Virus record (IMG/VR): IMGVR_UViG_3300048833_000277
Location: 1 to 38,773 of that record
Source: a virus
Length of the DNA: 38,773 bases
Strand: one strand, 5' to 3'
Below are positions 2,292 through 36,989 of the stretch, one piece after another. The notes under the pieces were generated by a model. It saw nothing but the letters and a program-made list of their open reading frames with translations, was not told where the DNA came from and ran no database searches. The stretch's first letter is position 1. Each line of letters starts with the position of its first letter. The position numbers were made by a program, and so were the translations under genes.

Positions 2292-3748
2292 CAATCGCAA
2301 CACACATCATCGACATCACCGGTGGCACGCTGCACACAGTCGACAGCCTGCTGGAAGCCGCTGGCGACGCGGCTGCGCTGACCGGTCCGGAGATCGTCGC
2401 GGCGATCACAGCGGAACTCGGCAGCACCACCTGGCGGACTCATCCGTCGAACTCAGCGATCGTGACTGCCATCAACACGCAGCTCGGCAACACGAACTGG
2501 CAGACGCAACCGAGCAACGCCGCGATCGTCTCAGCCATCAACACGCAGCTCGGCGGAACAACATGGCAGAGCGGCGGTTCTGGCTCGCCGACTTTCGGCT
2601 CTCTCGGTGGTGCCGTCGCCGACAATGCTGCGCTGGTCGCAGAGTTTGCGACGAAGGCTGACGACGATCACACGCACGTGCTTGAAGATCTAACGGACCT
2701 CGACGTCAGCGCGGATATGGTCGCCTTCGATCAGGGCATTCGGCCAGGTCTGTACGACGATCTCGATGAGCCTCCAGTCGGTACGATTTTCGAAGGCTCT
2801 AACGATGGCCATCTTTACTGGTGCCACCGCGACGGATCCGTGCATCTGCTCTGCGACAGCGGCGGATACGGCGGCGGAACATGGGGCACCATCACCGGCA
2901 CGCTCAGCGATCAGGAAGATCTGCAGGAAGCTCTCGACGACAAGCAGCCGCTGGACAGCAATCTGACGCAGCTCTCGTCGCTGTCCACAAGTAGCGGTCA
3001 ATCAATAATTTTGGTCACGCCCACGGGCATGACGAAGATGGATATCAGTAACGATGTGCAGAGTCTGCTGGGATCGCTGACGCATCTGGCCTTTCGCACC
3101 GCGCTAGACGTGCCTCAGGCTTCGCACGTGGTCAGCGTCATGGGCGGCGATCAGTCGATCAGCGGGCAAAAGATTTTCATGGACGGCATCACGATCGGCG
3201 GAGGCAGTACGACAATCTGCACGATCAATTCCGGCGTCACGACGCAGTCACAGATTCTGCAGTTCCGACCAACCGACCTAACGTCCGCAAACGTCGCGTG
3301 CCTCGATCTATACGCCGGATCGGCAGCGACTCGACTTCCAGCACTGCGATTGTTTTCGGCGAATGCATCTTCCCCGCAGTACGGATTCCAAGTCGGAACC
3401 GGACCGGCCACGCTGGCCGCGAACACCTGGCACTTCGCCAGTACTGTCGTCGGCAGCAGCATGGCGAATTCGCTGCCATGGTCGATTACTGTCAGCAACA
3501 CTACAGACGGCCGCTTTAGCGCAATGGCGGTTGCGAATACTGGCGCCGTGACGATACCGAAGACACTCGCCGTCACAGGTGCCGTCAGCACCGGAATGCT
3601 GACGATCGGCGTCTACACGTTTGCGACAGTTCCATCCGCCAGCGCGAACACGGGCGCCACGATTCGAATCTCTGACAGATCACATCGGCTGGCGACGTCA
3701 AACGGCACCGTCTGGAACTGGGCAGGCTCCACAACCGCAATCTCGTAG
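2288..3748 (+). CDS. Putative tail fibre protein with short internal repeats
   Basis: A 486-residue protein starting at an ATGA overlap. Residues about 39-95 contain two and a half tandem copies of a 22-residue unit of the form LG-x-T-x-W-x-T-x-PSN-x-AIV-x-AINTQ (about nt 2404-2570). Residues about 127-150 carry a DDHTHVLEDLTDL motif; His/Thr-rich linkers of this kind are common in trimeric phage fibres. The C-terminal third is Ala/Thr/Ser-rich beta material (TIPKTLAVTGAVSTGMLTIG), typical of fibre shafts and tips. It is the last large structural gene before the glycosyltransferase. The stop codon lies beside a palindromic dispersed repeat (3749-3819). Confidence 0.75.
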   Translation: MTIATHIIDITGGTLHTVDSLLEAAGDAAALTGPEIVAAITAELGSTTWRTHPSNSAIVTAINTQLGNTNWQTQPSNAAIVSAINTQLGGTTWQSGGSGSPTFGSLGGAVADNAALVAEFATKADDDHTHVLEDLTDLDVSADMVAFDQGIRPGLYDDLDEPPVGTIFEGSNDGHLYWCHRDGSVHLLCDSGGYGGGTWGTITGTLSDQEDLQEALDDKQPLDSNLTQLSSLSTSSGQSIILVTPTGMTKMDISNDVQSLLGSLTHLAFRTALDVPQASHVVSVMGGDQSISGQKIFMDGITIGGGSTTICTINSGVTTQSQILQFRPTDLTSANVACLDLYAGSAATRLPALRLFSANASSPQYGFQVGTGPATLAANTWHFASTVVGSSMANSLPWSITVSNTTDGRFSAMAVANTGAVTIPKTLAVTGAVSTGMLTIGVYTFATVPSASANTGATIRISDRSHRLATSNGTVWNWAGSTTAIS

Positions 3749-3837: not shown

Positions 3838-4332
3838 ATGAGCACTCGACCTTACGAACTTCTGGTCCGCTTCGCCGCAGACGGCACCGTTGCTGGCGTC
3901 TCGGCGAAAACTCTGACTACAGTCAACGGCCGCGACTACGAATCCGATCCGATGCCGCTGGGCTCGATCGACGATCCAGCGTTCGCCGACTTCGCCGATC
4001 AGTTTTGCGCAGCCGTTGTCGCGCAACGTGACGGCCTCGCCGCTCAGGTGTCCGAGCTGCTCGAACAGATCGAGATCCTGCAGGCACAGATCCCCGCTCC
4101 GCGCGGTCCGAGAGAAGTCACGCCAGAACAGTTCCTCGCTCGCTTCTCACCTGCCGATATCGTGGCTATCGATCAGTCCACCGATCCCCGCGTCGTGCTG
4201 GCGAAGGTGACTCTGCAGACTCGATCGAGTGTCGTCGATCTCGATTCGCCGCTCCTGGCAGCGATGATCGACGGCCTGATAGCAGCCGGCATCGCAATCG
4301 ACGAGACCGAACGAGAAAGGATCTTCGCGTAA
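3838..4332 (+). CDS. Hypothetical tail-operon protein with coiled-coil segment
   Basis: A 164-residue protein. The N-terminal part (MSTRPYELLVRFAADGTVAG) is beta-like. Residues about 57-85 (QRDGLAAQVSELLEQIEILQAQI) form a plausible coiled coil. The C-terminal part is helical and ends in a LLAAMIDGLIAAGIAIDETERERIFA stretch. It lies directly after the fibre gene and overlaps the glycosyltransferase start (TAATG at 4330-4334), so it is probably co-translated. Small proteins at this spot in tail operons are often fibre chaperones or accessory proteins, but no family match is recognised. Confidence 0.7.
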   Translation: MSTRPYELLVRFAADGTVAGVSAKTLTTVNGRDYESDPMPLGSIDDPAFADFADQFCAAVVAQRDGLAAQVSELLEQIEILQAQIPAPRGPREVTPEQFLARFSPADIVAIDQSTDPRVVLAKVTLQTRSSVVDLDSPLLAAMIDGLIAAGIAIDETERERIFA

Positions 4333-5954
4333 TGTCGACGACTCAGACGCTGGCGTTGTTTGCTTCGTGTCCGATCCGGACAAAAGCCATCTCGAAGGGC
4401 GTGGCCTGGCTCCGCAAGCATCGGCCGATGGTCGAGAGCTGGGCTGCCGACCTGCGTCTCGACATGCAGGCCGTGCAGGCTGCCATCAATGCGGATCTCG
4501 CTGGCGAGCCGCAGGGCGTCAGCCCTCGGTGTGACTCGACGGTGCAAACACACGGAGGGCTGACGCCCAACCGCTCGCCTGGTATTTCGGCCGAAATAAC
4601 TGTCATCATCACGTGCCACAATTACGCTCACTTCCTGCAGGACTGTCTGGACTCCATCGCAGCATCCACGCTGCAGCCGACACACGTGATCGTGATCGAC
4701 GACTCCAGCGACACACCGCTGGCGTCTCTCGCCTTTGAAATTACAAATCTCAAATCTCAAATCGACTTCCAGCGAGTCGAATACCGCAGTCAGCACCTGA
4801 GCTGCCAGCATGGTTTCGACCAGTGCGTCACGAAGTACGTGCTCTGGCTGGATGCCGACGACAAGCTGCATCCGGATTACCTGCAGACGGCCGTCAGCAT
4901 GCTGGACTCAGACCGCGAGGCAGCGTTCGTCTTTCCGTTGCTGCAGGCGTTCGGCGATCGTGAAGGCATGATCTTTGATATCGACCGTGCACCTGACGTT
5001 GTGCGCTGGTCCGATCTGGAATCTCGGAACTGGTGCGGCGTCAGCACGATGTTCCGAGCGGACATCCTGCGTCAGTCGCTGGCTCTCCGGACCGACCGAG
5101 TCCCCGGTTGCGGCTGCAATGACTGGATCACCGCGCGGACTGTCCTCAGGTCCGGACCGTGGCACGGGCTCAAGTGCCCTGTGCCGCTGCTGTATCGCCA
5201 GCACGCGGCCGGTGCACACCTGCAGCCTGACTTTCCGAAGTACGAGCTGCAGGCGAACATCGCGCACGAAGTCGTGACGATCTGCGTGGCGTTCAGCGGC
5301 CGCTGGGAACCATGGTGGAAACTGCGCGAATGGATCATCAATCAAGACTGGCCATACAACCAGGTGCGATTGCTCATTCTGAACTCAACGCATGCCGACC
5401 TGACGGCCAAAGCTCTCGGCCTGGATGACATGCCGTTCGCTTCTCTGCAGATCGAACGCATCGACGTCGGATTCCCTTCGCTCGCCGAACAGGAACGTCG
5501 CAACCGGCAGGACATCTGCAGGCAGGTCGACAGCGCTGTGGCCGGACTCTACAACCGAGCGTTTCAATGTGCGTTCGGCGAGTGGATGCTGTTCGTCGAA
5601 GATGACGTAATTCCTCAGCGGCCGGATGCGATCGCACAATTGTTCAAAAGCGTTGGGCCAAACGTCGCGGCCGTCTCCGGAGTTTACCGGCATCGCTACG
5701 ACAACAACGCCGTCGCCTTCGGAGCCCCCAACGGCAAGCTGCCGATGCGAGACATGGACGGCCCAGCGATCGAACACGTGACCGGAACGGGATTCGGCTG
5801 CCTGCTCGCGCGTCGATCCGTCTTCACCCGCTTCGGCCTCTCCGGAGACGATCCCCGTGCATGGTTCTACGACGTCAACGCAGGCGTCCGAGTCGCTCGC
5901 ATGGGCTACCGCTGGATTCTGGATCGATCCGTCTACTGCGAGCATCTGGTGTGA
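4332..5954 (+). CDS. Two-domain family 2 glycosyltransferase
   Basis: A 540-residue cytoplasmic protein with two GT-A-like domains. Domain 1 (about residues 88-300) begins with an ITVIITCHNYAHFLQDCLDSI stretch and carries a metal-binding DADD at 174-177, typical of GT2 enzymes. Domain 2 (about 315-540) contains VEDD at 422-425 followed by an aromatic- and glycine-rich acceptor region. It would transfer sugars from nucleotide donors to an unknown acceptor, either host envelope glycan (receptor masking or conversion) or a virion protein. It is the last gene before the terminator and attP, so it would be end-proximal in the prophage. Two host-like dispersed repeats are translated in frame within it (residues about 57-83 and 134-145). 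Confidence 0.85.
   Translation: MSTTQTLALFASCPIRTKAISKGVAWLRKHRPMVESWAADLRLDMQAVQAAINADLAGEPQGVSPRCDSTVQTHGGLTPNRSPGISAEITVIITCHNYAHFLQDCLDSIAASTLQPTHVIVIDDSSDTPLASLAFEITNLKSQIDFQRVEYRSQHLSCQHGFDQCVTKYVLWLDADDKLHPDYLQTAVSMLDSDREAAFVFPLLQAFGDREGMIFDIDRAPDVVRWSDLESRNWCGVSTMFRADILRQSLALRTDRVPGCGCNDWITARTVLRSGPWHGLKCPVPLLYRQHAAGAHLQPDFPKYELQANIAHEVVTICVAFSGRWEPWWKLREWIINQDWPYNQVRLLILNSTHADLTAKALGLDDMPFASLQIERIDVGFPSLAEQERRNRQDICRQVDSAVAGLYNRAFQCAFGEWMLFVEDDVIPQRPDAIAQLFKSVGPNVAAVSGVYRHRYDNNAVAFGAPNGKLPMRDMDGPAIEHVTGTGFGCLLARRSVFTRFGLSGDDPRAWFYDVNAGVRVARMGYRWILDRSVYCEHLV
4503..4579. repeat. Imperfect 30-bp inverted repeat (family B) inside the glycosyltransferase gene
   Basis: The left arm at 4503-4532 starts GGCGAGCCGCAGGGCGTCAG and the right arm at 4550-4579 ends GACGCCCAACCGCTCGCC; they are largely complementary. 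The right arm belongs to the same family as 23872-23900, 33369-33397 and 36966-36989. Here the repeat is read through as protein, giving a GEPQGVSPR...HGGLTPNRSP linker before the first catalytic domain. Confidence 0.85.
4734..4763. repeat. AAATCTCAAA-type repeat (family C) translated within the glycosyltransferase
   Basis: An A/T-rich direct-repeat stretch built on TTTGAAATTACAAATCTC and CAAATCTCAAATC interrupts otherwise GC-rich coding sequence and encodes FEITNLKSQI. A closely similar element lies in the intergenic region at 10451-10481. It appears as a short insertion between the donor-binding half and the DADD motif of the first GT domain. Confidence 0.7.
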
Positions 5955-7784: not shown

Positions 7785-7859
7785 GCCCGTCATGAATTGA
7801 CGGGCACTCACTCAATACGACAGCCCGCTGATTCTGGACAAGGATCAGCGGGCTGTTTT
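7785..7859 (+). terminator. Leader hairpin followed by intrinsic terminator (possible attenuator)
   Basis: GCCCGTCA-tgaat-TGACGGGC (7785-7805) is a perfect 8-bp hairpin just after the predicted transcription start. It is followed by CAGCCCGCTGAT (7821-7832) and ATCAGCGGGCTG (7844-7855), a perfect 12-bp stem ending in TTTT (7856-7859). The 11-base loop includes GGACAAGG, containing two GGA motifs of the type bound by CsrA. It precedes the tRNA genes, so read-through or antitermination would be needed to express them from the upstream promoter. Confidence 0.75.
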
Positions 7860-7912
7860 CGTTGGTGCTCGGCATTCGCGGGCCGAACACTGTGACCGAT
7901 GCTGATCCATTC

Positions 7913-7982
7913 GGTGGGCTGGGCTAATTGGAAAGTCGCGGGACCGCGTCCCGAAATCGAGGTTCGACTCCTCGGCCTGCCG
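7913..7982 (+). tRNA. tRNA-like gene with shortened anticodon loop (degenerate or unusual tRNA)
   Basis: All arms of a tRNA are present. Acceptor 7913-7919 pairs with 7975-7981 (7 bp, two G-U). D stem GGCT/AGTC is at 7922-7925 and 7934-7937. T arm CGAGG-TTCGACT-CCTCG is at 7958-7974. The anticodon arm is abnormal: a 5-bp stem CGGGA/TCCCG (7939-7943, 7949-7953) closes only a 5-base loop CCGCG; or a 4-bp stem leaves a 7-base loop without U33 that would show anticodon CGC. No CCA is encoded. It sits 8 bases before tRNA-fMet. It may be a decayed tRNA or a tRNA mimic. Confidence 0.6.
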
Positions 7983-7990
7983 CTGATCTT

Positions 7991-8064
7991 CGCCGGGTAG
8001 AGCAGTCTGGAAGCTCGCTGGGCTCATAACCCAGAGGTCGCAGGTTCAAATCCTGCCCTGGCCA
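7991..8064 (+). tRNA. Initiator tRNA-Met (fMet, anticodon CAU)
   Basis: A full cloverleaf: acceptor CGCCGGG/CCTGGCC (7991-7997, 8057-8063), D arm GAGC/GCTC, anticodon arm CTGGG-CTCATAA-CCCAG with CAT at 8025-8027, T arm GCAGG-TTCAAAT-CCTGC, discriminator A8064, CCA not encoded. Three hallmarks mark it as initiator rather than elongator: an unpaired 1:72 position (C x C), three consecutive G-C pairs at the base of the anticodon stem (GGG/CCC), and the A11:U24 pair. An initiator tRNA in a temperate phage is rare. Confidence 0.92.
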
Positions 8065-8107
8065 TTTCCGTTCTGTCACTTCCTCACAATAGATTGGACT
8101 GCATGTC

Positions 8108-11206: not shown

Positions 11207-11292
11207 GACTGCCTGCTGATCTTATCTAAGACTGTGTGCACTCGCAGCGACACGCAGTTGCCCGTCTCATGCTGCATCGAAAGGAATCGATC

Positions 11293-11490
11293 ATGTTAGT
11301 CCTGTCCAGAAAAGTCTCCGAAGTCATTCACATCGGCGATCAAATCAGAGTGATGATCGTTCGCATTGGTCCTAATTCGGTGCGCGTCGGAATCGAGGCC
11401 CCGGAGGACATGGCAATCGTTCGAGACGAACTGCTGCCAGATTCGCCATCATCCCTCACACCAATTCCAGAACTCACGGAGGCTCGCTAA
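11293..11490 (+). CDS. csrA: CsrA family translational regulator, copy 1
   Basis: A 65-residue homologue of CsrA/RsmA, a dimeric RNA-binding protein that binds GGA motifs in hairpin loops, commonly over ribosome-binding sites, to block translation or change mRNA decay. The signature MLVLSRKVSEVIHIGD is intact and the key Arg44 is present (AIVRDEL). The start at 11293 is chosen because MLVLSRK is the conserved N terminus and AAGGAA lies 6-7 bases upstream. The C-terminal tail is longer and Pro-rich compared with E. coli CsrA. It overlaps the next gene (TAATG). It is divergent from copy 2 at 22803, so the two are not a recent duplication. Confidence 0.93.
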   Translation: MLVLSRKVSEVIHIGDQIRVMIVRIGPNSVRVGIEAPEDMAIVRDELLPDSPSSLTPIPELTEAR

Positions 11491-19027: not shown

Positions 19028-19264
19028 TCAATTCTCACTCGCCCGCTGTTCCAGCTTGATCTCGCCTCGGCCCAGTCGAGCCAGATACTCGAGCGCCGTC
19101 TTTCCGACCAGCTTACGAAGCTCCGCTGACTTGCTGCAGTAACCCGCCAGCTTCTGCAAGCCTCGGAATTCTTCCTCGGTCAAAGCGATCGATTGAGCCC
19201 GACGAATCGGACGTCCGAACGATCCCTTCAGTGGCGGATCGTTCTGCGGTGCGGGCGCAATCAT
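19028..19264 (-). CDS. Small hypothetical reverse-strand protein
   Basis: A 78-residue protein. After a Pro-rich N terminus (MIAPAPQNDPPLKGSFGRP) comes a helical region, SIALTEEEFRGLQKLAGYC and ELRKLVGKTALEYLARLGRG, suggestive of a small DNA-binding or antitoxin-like fold. The upstream Shine-Dalgarno is weak (GAGAG). It converges on the 18576 membrane gene and is divergent from the 19466 gene. No family assignment is made; it may be a lysogeny-expressed gene. Confidence 0.5.
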   Translation of the reverse strand: MIAPAPQNDPPLKGSFGRPIRRAQSIALTEEEFRGLQKLAGYCSKSAELRKLVGKTALEYLARLGRGEIKLEQRASEN

Positions 19265-19383
19265 GCAAGTCTCTCGCGGTCTCAGCCGTCAGATTGAGTT
19301 GTCGTCATCGCCCAGCGATTCGCCGAAAACTGAACACCGAAAACCGAAAACCCTTGTGAAAGAAAAAGTCATAACTCAATAAC

Positions 19384-19461
19384 GCGACCGCCAAGCCTGC
19401 ATCCCGGCGAGAGTTGAACTGCGTGTTCGCTCGCCGGGGCTGCAGCATTTTAGGCGGTCGC
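19384..19461 (+). ncRNA. Long structured RNA hairpin upstream of the 19466 gene
   Basis: Three stacked helices can be read directly: outer GCGACCGCC/GGCGGTCGC (19384-19392, 19453-19461), middle CTGCA/TGCAG (19397-19401, 19441-19445), inner CCCGGCGAG/CTCGCCGGG (19403-19411, 19430-19438) with an 18-base apical loop. The right outer arm contains GGCGG, the only plausible ribosome-binding site for the ATG at 19466, so the fold could control translation. It has no T-run. A small RNA or a phage DNA site is also possible. Confidence 0.6.
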
Positions 19462-19465
19462 TTGA

Positions 19466-20083
19466 ATGCAGTCGATAACACAATCACAGCTCGCAGCACT
19501 GCTCTACGCGACCAGTAAGACCCAGCTTGTCTCACTTGTCAGCGTTACGGAGCCTGCGATGCGGAAACGCGGCAACCCGTACGCGACCGCTCGCAAGGTG
19601 TCACTGATCACAGGCGTCGTGAATTTCACGTACAGCAAAGCGGTCAATCGCCAGCGAGCCCGTGAGTACGCCGGCCGAGGCCCCTCGCAACGCCCGCCAC
19701 AAAGATTCCGAGCCCTTCGCCGCAAATGGGGCAAGCGCATTCAGAACACGCCGCTGGTGAGTCTGGAAGTCGAGACCGAAGAAGACACGGAGCTTGAGCT
19801 GTATCTGGAAGTGAAATGCGAACGGCGTCACTTCCTGTTCTTCGATCCGAAGACTCGCAAGCGCATCCAGGACGAAGTGATATCACCGTTCCTGCGCAAG
19901 ATCGAACGCAACCCGCGGCAAGGCCTCGAACGCGAAGTCGTGCTGCGTGACTATCGACTGGACCACATCGCCGAACTGACCATTGCAGGCTCGCAGTACC
20001 GCATTTCGCCAGCCTCAACCGAGCTGCTGCGTTACTTGCCGCCCAAAAACCCAACCGGCAAACCAACCGCCTCAAAGGCATGA
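19466..20083 (+). CDS. Conserved phage protein of unknown function
   Basis: A 205-residue protein. The segment VTEPAMRKRGNPYATARKVS ... VNFTYSKAVNRQR followed by RKWGKRIQNTPLVSLEV and LYLEVKCERR recalls, from memory, a widespread phage hypothetical family with TEPKM-x-KRGNP, Y-x-x-x-VNRQR and RKWG-x-R motifs. No function is established. It is strongly basic in the middle, which suggests nucleic-acid binding. The start at 19466 depends on a ribosome-binding site inside a hairpin; the ATG at 19562 is an alternative. Confidence 0.7.
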   Translation: MQSITQSQLAALLYATSKTQLVSLVSVTEPAMRKRGNPYATARKVSLITGVVNFTYSKAVNRQRAREYAGRGPSQRPPQRFRALRRKWGKRIQNTPLVSLEVETEEDTELELYLEVKCERRHFLFFDPKTRKRIQDEVISPFLRKIERNPRQGLEREVVLRDYRLDHIAELTIAGSQYRISPASTELLRYLPPKNPTGKPTASKA

Positions 20084-20093
20084 AAGTGCTGTC

Positions 20094-20288
20094 ATGAATT
20101 TCGGAAAGTCGTGGACGAAATCCAAAACCGTCATCGTCAATTCTCTGTCACTCGCTGCCGGACTGCTGGCCACGGCCGCCGGTTCGGAGCTGGTCGCATC
20201 GTATCCGAAAAGCGCCGCGATGATCGGCACCGCACTGGCCGCCGTCAACATCGCTCTGCGTTTCGTCACCGTCGAACCGCTGAAGTAA
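20094..20288 (+). CDS. Holin-like small membrane protein
   Basis: A 64-residue protein with a basic N terminus (MNFGKSWTKSKT), a hydrophobic segment at about 15-31 (VNSLSLAAGLLATAAGS) and a second at about 41-57 (AAMIGTALAAVNIALRF). The size and the K-T-x-x-N ... AAVNIALR pattern resemble small phage proteins often annotated as holins. Its place before a TM protein and a cysteine peptidase supports a lysis role, but there is no decisive motif. The gene starts 11 bases after the upstream stop. Confidence 0.55.
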   Translation: MNFGKSWTKSKTVIVNSLSLAAGLLATAAGSELVASYPKSAAMIGTALAAVNIALRFVTVEPLK

Positions 20289-22802: not shown

Positions 22803-22997
22803 ATGCTGGTACTCAGTCGGAAGAAGGACGAAAAGATCGTCATCGGCGACAACATCACGCTGATGGTGATCGAGATTCGAGGCGACAAAGTTCGTCTGGG
22901 GATCGAGGCGCCGAAGGACGTGAGCGTACACCGGCAGGAAGTCTACGAAGCAATTCGACGTGACGGAGCTCGCGAATCGGACAGTGCTAACCCTTGA
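22803..22997 (+). CDS. csrA: CsrA family translational regulator, copy 2
   Basis: A 64-residue CsrA with the canonical N terminus MLVLSRKKDEKIVIGD and the RNA-contacting VSVHRQEVY segment with Arg44, closer to cellular CsrA than copy 1. AGGGAG upstream supports the start. The two copies share only the family core, which suggests separate acquisition or specialisation, for instance one early and one late. Its 3' end overlaps the convergent antitoxin-like gene by 11 bases. It would bind GGA-containing hairpins of host and phage mRNAs. Confidence 0.95.
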   Translation: MLVLSRKKDEKIVIGDNITLMVIEIRGDKVRLGIEAPKDVSVHRQEVYEAIRRDGARESDSANP

Positions 22998-23328
22998 CGG
23001 TCACCAGAATCTCCACGCCGATCGCTTCTGCGACGCGTCGCAGAGTCGTCATCGTGGGATTGCCTTTTCCGTTCTCCAGAAGTGACAAGCTGGCTCGCGT
23101 GATGCCGGTTTTGTCGCAAACGTCCTGCAGAGACAACCCACGCTTTTCACGAGCTTCCTTCAGGGCTGTTAACACATCCATAAACTCAAGCTGCCGCTGT
23201 TCGACCTCTTCAAACACCTGACGGGCACGTGCCTTGTTCGCAGCAATGACCTCAGGCCGCTCTTCTTCGGCAATGGCCTTGCTCAGTCGTGCTTCCATCT
23301 CGGGCGTCGGTTTCAGGCGTTTCGACAT
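22987..23328 (-). CDS. XRE-type antitoxin-like DNA-binding protein
   Basis: A 113-residue reverse-strand protein. The N-terminal ~45 residues are helical and charged (MSKRLKPTPEMEARLSKAIA), and residues about 50-113 are an HTH_3 domain (ALKEAREKRGLSLQDVCDKT, GITRASLSLLENGKGNPTMT). The start at 23328 is preferred over one 23 codons earlier because GAGAG precedes it and the longer form would overlap the toxin gene. It follows the toxin-like gene by 17 bases in one operon, so it likely neutralises it and represses the operon. Confidence 0.75.
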   Translation of the reverse strand: MSKRLKPTPEMEARLSKAIAEEERPEVIAANKARARQVFEEVEQRQLEFMDVLTALKEAREKRGLSLQDVCDKTGITRASLSLLENGKGNPTMTTLRRVAEAIGVEILVTVKG

Positions 23329-23345
23329 GACGTCACTCTCTTTCT

Positions 23346-23582
23346 TCAGACCTCGTAGGCCGTGACCGGAATCACGGAGACATCTTCTTCCACCCACTCA
23401 AACACCACTGCAATCCGGCGACCATCAAGAGCAGCGCCAAAGCGAATCAGGCGGTTACTGGAATGGCTCATTTCTTCACGGTAGTGGTTTTCGAAAGCAA
23501 ATTCGAAATCGTCCTGAGTCAACCCATGCTGAGCCACTTTATCAATCGCTCTTTCTGACCAGTAGTACTCGAACCAAGCCAT
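23346..23582 (-). CDS. BrnT/RelE-like toxin of a toxin-antitoxin pair
   Basis: A 78-residue reverse-strand protein, MAWFEYYWSERAIDKVAQHG, with a C-terminal VFEWVEEDVSVIPVTAYEV stretch. The pattern of a small basic-acidic alpha/beta fold ending in a V-x-PVTA motif resembles BrnT-like ribonuclease toxins (and the related DUF4258 group). TAAGGA precedes the ATG on the reverse strand. The downstream partner is an XRE protein rather than the ribbon-helix-helix partner usual for BrnT. A TA module in a phage can serve stability, superinfection exclusion or abortive defence. Confidence 0.65.
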   Translation of the reverse strand: MAWFEYYWSERAIDKVAQHGLTQDDFEFAFENHYREEMSHSSNRLIRFGAALDGRRIAVVFEWVEEDVSVIPVTAYEV

Positions 23583-23685
23583 TGAATCGTTCCTTAACCC
23601 CCGAACTGTTGTTTCGGCAAATCATAACGCGGCCGTTGGTGTTATTAAACAACAAAACAGATGTTTTCAGAAAACCGTGACGTGA

Positions 23686-26112
23686 ATGCCACGCAAACCG
23701 ACCAAAAAAGCCGCCGCCAAATCTTCGAAGCCGGTGACTCCTTCGCCGAGTGCTGTGAAGCGGCCGCCGAAGAAATCCGCGGCGAAGAAAGCGGCGAAGA
23801 AGAAAGCGAAGAAGCGAGACGAGAAAGACTCCTCGCCGATTGGATCGACGAACGCATCAGCAGGTACTGCGCACGGAGGGCTAACGCCCAGCCGCTCGCC
23901 GAAAATGAAAGTGCAACCGACGGCAGTGACTCCGGTACCGGAGACGCAGGCCTACGAGGAACACAAGTCACGCAGCCGAGAGCGGCAAGCGAAGATCGTC
24001 CGCGAAGGTCAGGACATTGGAGCGATTCCGGAGCCAGCGAATCCGAAACGCCGCGCGAAGTGTGAACGAAATCTGAATCAGTTCTATCGGACCTACTTCC
24101 CGGACGTGTTCGCGCATCCGTGGAGCCGAGTGCATACCAGACTGATTAAGCTCATCACCATGGCGGTGCTGATGGGCTGCATGCTGGCGGTCGGGATCCC
24201 ACGCGGATTCGGCAAGACGTCGATGTGCGTCCGAGCGGTCATCTGGGCCATCTGTTATCGCCATCACACTCTGATCATGCTCTTCGCTGCCACCAACGAA
24301 GCGGCGGCAGATCTGATCAAAGACATTCAGACCGAGCTGACAACGAATCCGTTGTTACTCGAGGACTTCCCGGAGATCTGTCTGCCGCTCATTGAGGTCG
24401 GCAGCGCGAACCAGAAAGGCCGCGGTCAGCTCTGCCAGGGCGAACCGACGAACGTTAAGGTCCGCAGCAACGAACTATGGACCGGAGACGTACTGCGTTC
24501 TGCGGACGGCAGCGTCATTCCTGGCGCTTGCATCTGGGCCTGTGGCATCACGGCGGGTGGAATTCGAGGGAAACGGCGAACCGTCGACGGCAGGGTTCTG
24601 CGGCCCACGCTGGGACTGGCAGACGACTGCCAGACGCGTTCCAGTGCAATCAGCCCTCGTCAATGCAATCGCCGCAAGAACATTCTGGAAGCGGACCTGC
24701 CTGGACTTCCCGGGCAATCGAACAGTTGGTCGTTTCTTTCCACATGGACCGTCATTGAACCCGACGACACTGCGGACTGGGTACTGAATCGCGAGAAAGC
24801 TCCGGACTACCACGGCCTGCGTGAACGGTTCCTTGATGCGATGCCTGACGACAAGGCGATGGAGAAATGGTCGGAGTGGAATGAGATCCGCATTCGATGC
24901 CAGCAGGCGGCTGGGTTGTCCGACGATGACCTGGATACCTTTGACGACCATGATCCGCTCGAACCCGCGCATGAGTTCTTCGACAAACACAAGAAGGTGA
25001 TGATTCGCGGTGCAAAAGTTGTCTGGGAGTATGCCTACGATCCAAAACGGTATCGGTGTGCGCTGGAAAAGGCGATGCACTGGTACTACCGCAACAAGCT
25101 GGCGTTCTACAGCGAATTGCAAAACGATCCCGCCGCGTTCCAGGTCGAAGCAAAACCGCAACTCAAGAAGTTTGATCTGTCGACTCGCTTCGGTCTGCAT
25201 CCACGCGGCACAGTTCCGCGCGGATCTCAGTGGCTCACGGTCGGGATCGACGTCCAGGGCAAAGTGCTGATGTGGTCGGTCCGCGCGTGGGCTCAGGATT
25301 CAACTAGTCAGGTGATCGAGTACGGCACCTGGCCCGGTCAGAATCGGCAGTACTTCACGCTGTCCGACATCCGTCTGACGATCGACGCCCATTACAGCAG
25401 CCTTCCGACATGGGAAGTCCGGCTCGCAGCAGCTCTGCGAGATCTGCTCACGAAACTGTTCGGCCAGCAGTGGCCGCGCGAAGACGGCCTGCAGCTCAGC
25501 CTCACTGCCGGTGGCGTCGATGCAAACTGGCAGACGGATGCCGTGAAAGCGGCGGTCATGGCGAGCGGATTCTACGGCAAGGTGTATCCGACGCACGGCC
25601 GTTCGTTCACGACGGCTCATCAGACGCTGAACGAATCGGCTGTTCGCGATCGCGACATCGTTGGCGACAACTGGCGTCTGAGACAGCCAAAGCAAGGCGA
25701 CGTGCAGTTCGTCACGTTCGACACGAACGTCTTCAAGTCTCAGTTGCGTGATCGGCTCATGATGAACATTGCCCAGCCGGGAGCGTTGACGCTCCATCTG
25801 GGACCGTCTCACGACATGTGGGCCGATCACATCTGCGCAGAACGTTGCCACGAAAAGCTGGATAAGACCCGCAATCGTGAATACGACGAATGGATGAAAC
25901 TGCCAAACCTCGACAACCACTATCTCGACTGTGAAGTGATCAACAACGTCGTGGCCGGAATGCTGGGAATCCGTCTGCCGATCGGGGCTGCAGCCCTGGA
26001 CGCCGTGAAAGCCATCGCCGCGATGCCGACCTCTTCACACTCGAATCAGAATCAGAATCAGCCTGTTCCAAACGCCGCCAACTACAAACCTTTTGCAAAG
26101 AAACGATCATGA
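23686..26112 (+). CDS. terL: Terminase large subunit (GpA family)
   Basis: An 808-residue packaging motor. The ATPase domain has Walker A GIPRGFGKTSM (about 170-180) and Walker B LGLADD (309-314). The nuclease domain shows acidic residues in GIDVQG (520-525), GVDANW (610-614) and NHYLDCEV (744-751), as in lambda gpA-type enzymes that cut and translocate concatemeric DNA into proheads. The first ~75 residues are an unusual Lys/Ala-rich tail (SAAKKAAKKKAKKRDEK) that includes a translated family B repeat. The ATG at 23686 has no good ribosome-binding site; a start after the tail is possible. No small terminase subunit is identified next to it. Confidence 0.92.
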   Translation: MPRKPTKKAAAKSSKPVTPSPSAVKRPPKKSAAKKAAKKKAKKRDEKDSSPIGSTNASAGTAHGGLTPSRSPKMKVQPTAVTPVPETQAYEEHKSRSRERQAKIVREGQDIGAIPEPANPKRRAKCERNLNQFYRTYFPDVFAHPWSRVHTRLIKLITMAVLMGCMLAVGIPRGFGKTSMCVRAVIWAICYRHHTLIMLFAATNEAAADLIKDIQTELTTNPLLLEDFPEICLPLIEVGSANQKGRGQLCQGEPTNVKVRSNELWTGDVLRSADGSVIPGACIWACGITAGGIRGKRRTVDGRVLRPTLGLADDCQTRSSAISPRQCNRRKNILEADLPGLPGQSNSWSFLSTWTVIEPDDTADWVLNREKAPDYHGLRERFLDAMPDDKAMEKWSEWNEIRIRCQQAAGLSDDDLDTFDDHDPLEPAHEFFDKHKKVMIRGAKVVWEYAYDPKRYRCALEKAMHWYYRNKLAFYSELQNDPAAFQVEAKPQLKKFDLSTRFGLHPRGTVPRGSQWLTVGIDVQGKVLMWSVRAWAQDSTSQVIEYGTWPGQNRQYFTLSDIRLTIDAHYSSLPTWEVRLAAALRDLLTKLFGQQWPREDGLQLSLTAGGVDANWQTDAVKAAVMASGFYGKVYPTHGRSFTTAHQTLNESAVRDRDIVGDNWRLRQPKQGDVQFVTFDTNVFKSQLRDRLMMNIAQPGALTLHLGPSHDMWADHICAERCHEKLDKTRNREYDEWMKLPNLDNHYLDCEVINNVVAGMLGIRLPIGAAALDAVKAIAAMPTSSHSNQNQNQPVPNAANYKPFAKKRS
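23872..23900. repeat. Family B repeat translated in the terminase tail
   Basis: CACGGAGGGCTAACGCCC then AGCCGCTCGCC, nearly identical to 4551-4579 and 33369-33397, is read in frame as HGGLTPSRSP, matching the HGGLTPNRSP peptide in the glycosyltransferase. Confidence 0.9.
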
Positions 26113-33108: not shown

Positions 33109-33381
33109 ATGGCCAAGCAATACGAAACGCGCGATGTGCAGCAGAAGGTGAACAACGCGGACGGAACTCAGAGCGTCATCACCGTCACGGAACGTCGCCT
33201 GAAGAAGGCTCACGACAAGCAGATGAGCCGTCTGCACAGCCGCCAACGAGGCGCGGCTGCTGAGCAGCATGCAGCCGTCGAATCACACTTCGAACCGTCG
33301 GCAGTGTCTCCGAAAGTGGAGTCAGCGGCCGCAGAGGTGGAGGAAGTGGCGGTCGAGGCGACTGAAGACACGGAGGGCTGA
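33109..33381 (+). CDS. Hypothetical basic protein with acidic tail
   Basis: A 90-residue protein. A basic N-terminal half (ERRLKKAHDKQMSRLHSRQR) and a Glu/Ala/Val-rich, probably disordered C terminus ending EEVAVEATEDTEG. It lies between tube and chaperone genes. Its last codons and stop are inside a family B repeat (33369-33397), so the reading frame may have been extended or cut by that repeat. Function unknown. Confidence 0.6.
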   Translation: MAKQYETRDVQQKVNNADGTQSVITVTERRLKKAHDKQMSRLHSRQRGAAAEQHAAVESHFEPSAVSPKVESAAAEVEEVAVEATEDTEG

Positions 33382-33465
33382 CGCCCAGCCGCTCGCCGGT
33401 CGAGTAGCCCGATCTGTCCTCAGATCGGGACTTCCTGCACTCTCGCCGATCTGAGACAGATCGGC
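33369..33465. repeat. Composite of family B and paired family A repeats
   Basis: Family B unit CACGGAGGGCTGACGCCC then AGCCGCTCGCC (33369-33397) is followed by CCCGATCTG-tcct-CAGATCGGG (33408-33429) and GCCGATCTG-aga-CAGATCGGC (33445-33465), then CCTACGGAG, which supplies the ribosome-binding site of the ATG at 33480. Two repeat families are thus stacked in one intergenic space. Confidence 0.9.
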
Positions 33466-36579: not shown

Positions 36580-36915
36580 ATGGAACCTACAACCAACGGC
36601 CTCAGCCATCTGATGCCGATCGCCAATCTGACCGTCGTCGGTGCTCTGATTCTGACGATTGTGATCTGCACGATCTTTCTCGTGACGAAAGGCATTCCAA
36701 AACTGATCGAAGGAATGACGGCATTCGTCAACGCGCTAATGGAGCGCAATGAAAAGCGTCAAACCGAGACACAGAACCAATTCATCGAAGCTCTCGACCG
36801 ACAAGCCAGAGCGCGGAGCGAATCCGCCAAAGCTGGCCACGATGCGGCAATGCGAATCGCCGACAACCTGCATGATCTGACCGAAGAAGTCCGCTCCGTC
36901 CTGCACGCGGGCTAA
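36580..36915 (+). CDS. Membrane-anchored small tail-region protein
   Basis: A 111-residue protein. The N-terminal segment about 14-36 (IANLTVVGALILTIVICTIF) is a transmembrane helix followed by an amphipathic helical region (EKRQTETQNQFIEALDRQAR). The ATG at 36580 is preferred; a GTG three codons earlier (36571) is an alternative. The placement right after the tape measure is unusual for a membrane protein; it might assist DNA entry or be a lysis-related or exclusion protein. No family is recognised. Confidence 0.6.
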   Translation: MEPTTNGLSHLMPIANLTVVGALILTIVICTIFLVTKGIPKLIEGMTAFVNALMERNEKRQTETQNQFIEALDRQARARSESAKAGHDAAMRIADNLHDLTEEVRSVLHAG

Positions 36916-36918
36916 CAC

Positions 36919-36989
36919 GGCGAGCCGAGGGCGTGAGCCCTCGGGTTTTCTCGCGAAAGTACCCAGAGGGCTGACGCCCTCGGCTCGCC
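36919..36989. repeat. Near-perfect 24-bp inverted repeat (family B)
   Basis: GGCGAGCCGAGGGCGTGAGC then CCTC (36919-36942) and GAGGGCTGACGCCCTC then GGCTCGCC (36966-36989) pair at 23 of 24 positions around a 23-base spacer, directly after the stop at 36915. Each arm is itself partly palindromic, so a cruciform or long RNA hairpin could form. It is the most complete intergenic copy of family B. Confidence 0.9.

Follow-up and report, generated by a model that had tools for sequence, protein, structure and literature searches.

In phage T4, genes e, soc, 49 and I-TevI have inhibitory structures at their translation initiation regions, where a leader helix lies over the Shine-Dalgarno (SD) sequence and/or the start codon, and the structure is kept in some relatives (review PMC3014915). 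A late promoter in the 5′ strand of the gene e structure gives transcripts that are free of it (PMC3014915). The review also names mobE of Aeromonas phage Aeh1, which has a hairpin that sequesters the ribosome-binding site (RBS), and the autogenous operators of T4 genes 43 and 32, at which the gene's own protein binds structured RNA (PMC3014915). We analyzed a virus record of 38,773 bases, hereafter the window (the whole stretch of DNA studied), which carries phage terminase, portal and head protease genes, and we focused on a stacked hairpin directly upstream of a gene for a 205-aa protein. By analogy, this element would be a further case of a known type of control, that of the RBS-hiding leaders of T4. 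The likeness is in function, whereas gene, phage and sequence are unrelated, and the element is known here from prediction. Like the Aeh1 hairpin, it would lie over the RBS of a phage gene, but mobE encodes a homing endonuclease, whereas none of the matches found identifies the 205-aa protein as such an enzyme. The operators of genes 43 and 32 are likewise structured RNAs upstream of, or overlapping, a phage gene RBS, but RNA binding by the 205-aa protein would be speculative. Among titles and abstract openings from the open full-text literature that concerns structured RNAs of phages or hairpins over phage ribosome-binding sites, there was no paper on the element.

The hairpin occupies positions 19384-19461 of the + strand, between two divergent genes. 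On one side is a 78-aa gene without an assigned function (19028-19264, - strand), and on the other is the 205-aa gene (19466-20083, + strand), which has no assigned function either. An in-frame TGA directly precedes the ATG of the 205-aa gene, and the gene therefore has no start further upstream in frame. Computed folding bore out the three consecutive helices of 9, 5 and 9 bp and the 18-base loop described in the initial annotation. The outer helix is formed by GCGACCGCC (19384-19392) and GGCGGTCGC (19453-19461), the middle helix by CTGCA (19397-19401) and TGCAG (19441-19445), and the inner helix by CCCGGCGAG (19403-19411) and CTCGCCGGG (19430-19438), to which the minimum free energy structure adds a U-G pair, extending it from 9 to 10 bp. 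The loop (19412-19429) can itself form UGAAC/GUUCG, which includes a short apical helix, GAAC/GTTC. The predicted free energy of the whole hairpin was -50.6 kcal/mol with a z-score of -5.94, and none of 200 shuffled sequences folded as well. Only 0.11% of the 9,673 84-nt + strand segments of the record were equally stable, making the element the fourth strongest separate + strand site.

The stronger + strand hairpins are at 36909, 4497 and 7785, and two of these three are built of a palindromic repeat, GGGCTGACGCCC. Units of this repeat occur at 4514-4568, 23878-23889, 33375-33386 and 36929-36979, with six matches at up to one mismatch compared with 0.26 expected, and two inverted pairs of them form the strongest and second strongest hairpins of the record. 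A glycosyltransferase ORF (4332-5954) contains the pair at 4514-4568, and the terminase ORF contains the unit at 23878; both sites are read through in frame and give GGLTPxRSP in the peptides. Another of the window's strongest hairpins contains the intergenic stretch 7810-7867, which is 85% identical to positions 2405-2349 of a related contig, L021, in the opposite orientation; apart from this stretch, the window and L021 share little DNA identity. The element at 19384 is single-copy, with one match in its own record and no further copies among the repeat families of this phage, which upholds the view in the initial annotation that it is separate from those families.

Database searches placed the element in no described family. 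An Rfam search of the window returned only a tRNA elsewhere and left the element without a match, and a search with the leaders of the window and of a second relative, L013, gave no match near the gathering score. The tRNA region of the window, 7913-8065, holds two adjacent ARAGORN calls, Ala-CGC and Met-CAT, of which Met-CAT alone reached the Rfam tRNA threshold; the Ala-CGC call may be degenerate. Exact 28-base and 25-base patterns of the element had no occurrence in IMG/VR beyond L013, and phage and plasmid collections held no DNA relative of the leader. Matches to Mycobacterium phages fell at query positions 1309-1345 (window 20208-20244), outside the element, and were discarded. A genome collection search gave one partial match, in a Mollicutes MAG, which we left out of the analysis. 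The records otherwise closest to the window, L006 and L007, whose matches were assigned by coordinates, do not reach the element. Compared with window 22973-26106, L006 is about 99% identical on both sides and 89% identical across the terminase gene, and the window stretch from about 22973 to 23681 has no like-for-like match in L006; to judge from these identities, the terminase region looks like a recombined module.

The first informative comparison is with L013, a 35.3-kb contig that is syntenic with the window and keeps the 78-aa gene. Over the 1.8-kb stretch compared, identity peaked on the hairpin (82% over 50 nt, at 19370-19439), whereas it was 57% in the 205-aa gene, 68% in the 78-aa gene, and 35% and 41% in the intergenic sequence beside the 78-aa gene and behind the 205-aa gene, respectively. 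A block at 19375-19399, CTCAATAACGCG(A/G)CCGCCAAGCCTG, has 24 of 25 bases as in L013. Nearby positions 19315-19337 agree in 20 of 23 columns as well (87%), but they resemble a dispersed repeat. The inner and middle helices are kept in L013 while their flanks diverge. Among the 18 pairs of the middle, inner and apical helices, 16 were unchanged, one in the middle helix had both bases exchanged (C-G to G-C), and another was broken; the broken pair is C-U in the aligned columns, but when L013 is folded, a U bulges out and pairing resumes at the next base. An A-G mismatch beside the inner helix of the window is a G-C pair in L013, and the L013 loop could close on a UUCG tetraloop. Sliding the 3′ partners reduced the paired cells from 97% to 31-49%. 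One compensated pair was reached by 256 of 500 shuffles, and covariation alone therefore proves nothing. One-base indels between the window and L013 within the element argue against coding as the cause of its conservation; we considered a coding minus strand at the element and put it aside.

The second relative, L021, is a 38.4-kb contig in which the following genes are in the same order as in the window and an 88-aa ORF occupies the place of the 78-aa gene on the other strand, before the homologue of the 205-aa gene. We took the start of this homologue as GTG 3744 from the protein alignment. An 81-nt hairpin at 3657-3737, with helices of 4, 7, 2+2, 12 and 6 bp, had a z-score of about -4.5 to -4.8 and was the strongest of 9,584 segments of that phage. 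Its stems had no detectable sequence similarity to those of the window or L013 and could not be aligned with them. A covariance model built from the window and L013 scored L021 at 6.1 bits, third in 601 bases and behind two chance matches, and we therefore count L021 as similar in place and architecture and not as a sequence-proven family member. The covariation analysis proposed in the initial annotation thus yielded one compensated pair between two alignable sequences, alongside a similar hairpin that cannot be aligned, which is supportive but not decisive.

We compared the leaders of other genes across these phages. Thirty-two window ORFs had a match in at least one relative, and eight had a reciprocal best match in both; for this comparison the automatic L021 gene start, upstream of GTG 3744, was used. 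The 205-aa gene was the only one of the eight shared ORFs whose leader segment was among the strongest 0.5% in each phage (0.11, 0.41 and 0.24%), and the next-best shared ORF ranked at 6.7, 1.5 and 2.2%. These results bear on the idea that the element is a background intergenic hairpin without function. The phage does have several strong repeat-derived hairpins, and three on the + strand exceed the element, two of them made of GGGCTGACGCCC palindromes. The element, however, is single-copy, its sequence is kept in L013, a hairpin recurs at the same place in L021, and the other seven ORFs common to the three phages have no such pattern. We regard a functionless hairpin as improbable. No comparable leader hairpin was present in the three more distant homologues, L005, L002 and L017, whose best leader segments ranked at 2.4%, 6.8% and 7.5% of their own loci, respectively; L005 has a long hairpin, but it lies about 30 nt ahead of the start and does not cover it.

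How the hairpin meets the start of the gene was considered in all three phages, with the L013 and L021 start codons inferred from protein alignment. In the window, an SD-like AGGCGG (19452-19457) lies 8 nt before ATG 19466, its GGCGG is within the right arm of the outer helix, and the arm ends 4 nt upstream of the ATG. The initial annotation was thus right to place the SD in this arm, but the site is weak, with one mismatch and an uninterrupted match to AAGGAGGTGA of only 3 nt. SD sequences are only moderately common in this phage, and many genes lack one: a match of at least 4 nt precedes 14 of the 32 listed window genes, compared with 21% of random sites. The predicted unpaired probability at positions -13 to -7 was 0.00 in the window, 0.01 in L021 and 0.57 in L013. 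In L013 the outer helix pairs CGCGGCCGC with GUGGCCGUG, and its right arm, about 7 nt further on than in the window, covers the start codon GTG 7845 instead of the SD, with a predicted unpaired probability of 0.01 for that codon. Thus, the SD and/or the start codon is predicted to be paired in a stable leader helix in all three phages, as in the T4-type leaders. Mean accessibility from -15 to +2 placed the window gene third lowest among 35 listed ORFs; six of 32 listed ORFs were lower than the gene in L013, and none of 39 in L021. Considered alone, the outer helix of the window was matched by none of 2,000 shuffles and by 0.18% of 5,000 genomic segments, whereas it was marginal in L013 (1.6% of shuffles and 3.3% of genomic segments) and in L021 (4.7% and 3.3%), and it is not conserved column by column among the relatives. 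Taken together, the results give good support to a stable structure at this position and moderate support to the predicted hiding of the RBS.

The hairpin could instead act as DNA, either as an operator for the product of the divergent small gene or as a cruciform-extruding site for replication, packaging or recombination. Such a role would suit the divergent intergenic location in the window and L013 and the similar-sized ORF there in L021, and an inverted repeat would likewise show compensated changes. The strand preference of the fold points the other way. The hairpins of the three phages consist of stacked helices with bulges and two to six G-U pairs, and the + strand RNA folded better than its complement by 2.7, 4.9 and 5.0 kcal/mol in the window, L013 and L021, respectively. 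In addition, L021 lacks the shared arm sequence that a shared operator needs, and the small proteins of the divergent genes matched no DNA-binding family. We consider a DNA-level element unlikely.

The same strand comparison weighs on the possibility that the element is an independent small RNA or is expressed as RNA from the minus strand. A small RNA could well be compact, stable and single-copy, as this element is, and a sequence like the T-loop consensus GTTCRANYC can be read by eye on the minus strand of the window and L013. This likeness lies in the loop, within window 19407-19429, and is kept in L013 (GTTCAACTC / GTTCGATCC). No tRNA was called there, and we dropped a tRNA-like minus strand; the T-loop likeness may be due to chance. 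There is no terminator-like site with a U-run at the hairpin, for which reason we also put aside a reading of the element as an intrinsic terminator, and the + strand was the more stable in all three phages. The small RNA that the initial annotation had offered as an option is very unlikely, as is a minus-strand RNA.

The main rival of a translational role is that the element stands at the 5′ end of the mRNA, shielding the transcript from decay or insulating it against transcription from upstream; it would then overlap the initiation region only incidentally. The ompA leader hairpin protects its mRNA from decay in this way. The best supported parts of the element, the inner and middle helices, are away from the start codon, and immediately ahead of the hairpin, with its last base at 19383, is a weak promoter-like pair, TTGTGA-18-AATAAC, as would suit such a role. 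The score of this pair is ordinary, however, being matched in 32% of 170-nt stretches of the window, and scans of L013 and L021 for sigma-70-type sites found nothing above background. Nor does protection account for the fact that the outer arm extends to the start region in each of the three phages. We judge mRNA protection to be a minority possibility, though the foremost of the rivals. Across the element itself, the sigma-70-type scan gave no site that stands out and none on the + strand in the hairpin; an internal promoter, such as the late promoter of T4 gene e, was thus not seen among sites of the sigma-70 type.

The initial annotation had called the downstream gene a conserved phage gene, and this holds in so far as sequence homologues of the 205-aa protein were seen in only five other phage records: L013 (58% identity), L021 (45%), L005 (39%), L017 (39%) and L002 (35%), the last being a locus from a 484-kb uncultured phage. 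The protein belongs to no Pfam or PHROG family, however, and four of its homologues gave no Pfam or PHROG match that counts. A structural model built with five sequences (mean pLDDT 79.6) had no solved relative in the PDB at E 0.001 or better; at the same threshold it had four viral structural relatives, none with a named function.

A possible regulator is encoded by the phage itself. CsrA elsewhere blocks RBSs in hairpins, and GGA is the core of its sites. The window encodes a CsrA translational regulator at 11236-11490 (Pfam PF02599, E 7.5e-19). A leader bound by CsrA should carry GGA in hairpin loops near the RBS; GGA does not occur in 19375-19470, and we rejected this candidate.

The element is directly upstream of the gene, the start region is partly covered in three phages, and the fold is better on the gene's strand; for these reasons we favor a leader that controls translation. 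We put the chances at about even that the element acts in cis as the RNA leader of the 205-aa gene, occluding the initiation region and cutting translation. On this model, transcription from upstream of 19384 would allow the leader to fold as a stacked hairpin, the outer helix would pair with the ribosome-binding region, and 30S subunits would load poorly. The 205-aa protein may then be produced in small amounts, or only under a certain condition. We infer that the element is transcribed in the mRNA of the 205-aa gene, lowers its translation and is relieved in some way; candidates would be transcription that initiates within the hairpin, a protein, or the passage of a ribosome or polymerase. 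The translational switch proposed in the initial annotation is therefore best supported as a leader that controls translation, by place, occlusion and strand; for regulated opening we found nothing.

In the window, L013 and L021, the same gene is preceded by a stacked hairpin of 78-88 nt, and the stems of L021 are unrelated to the others. An undescribed class of leader RNA whose shape and position persist while the sequence turns over, perhaps an autogenous switch that the 205-aa protein reads by shape, could account for this, although we consider so specific a reading unlikely. If the leader acts as proposed, it would provide a group of uncultured phages with an additional point of post-transcriptional control and would draw attention to a gene without an assigned function whose dosage seems to need limiting. 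The pattern of a kept shape and a lost sequence would make this locus a useful case for structure-based search in phages.
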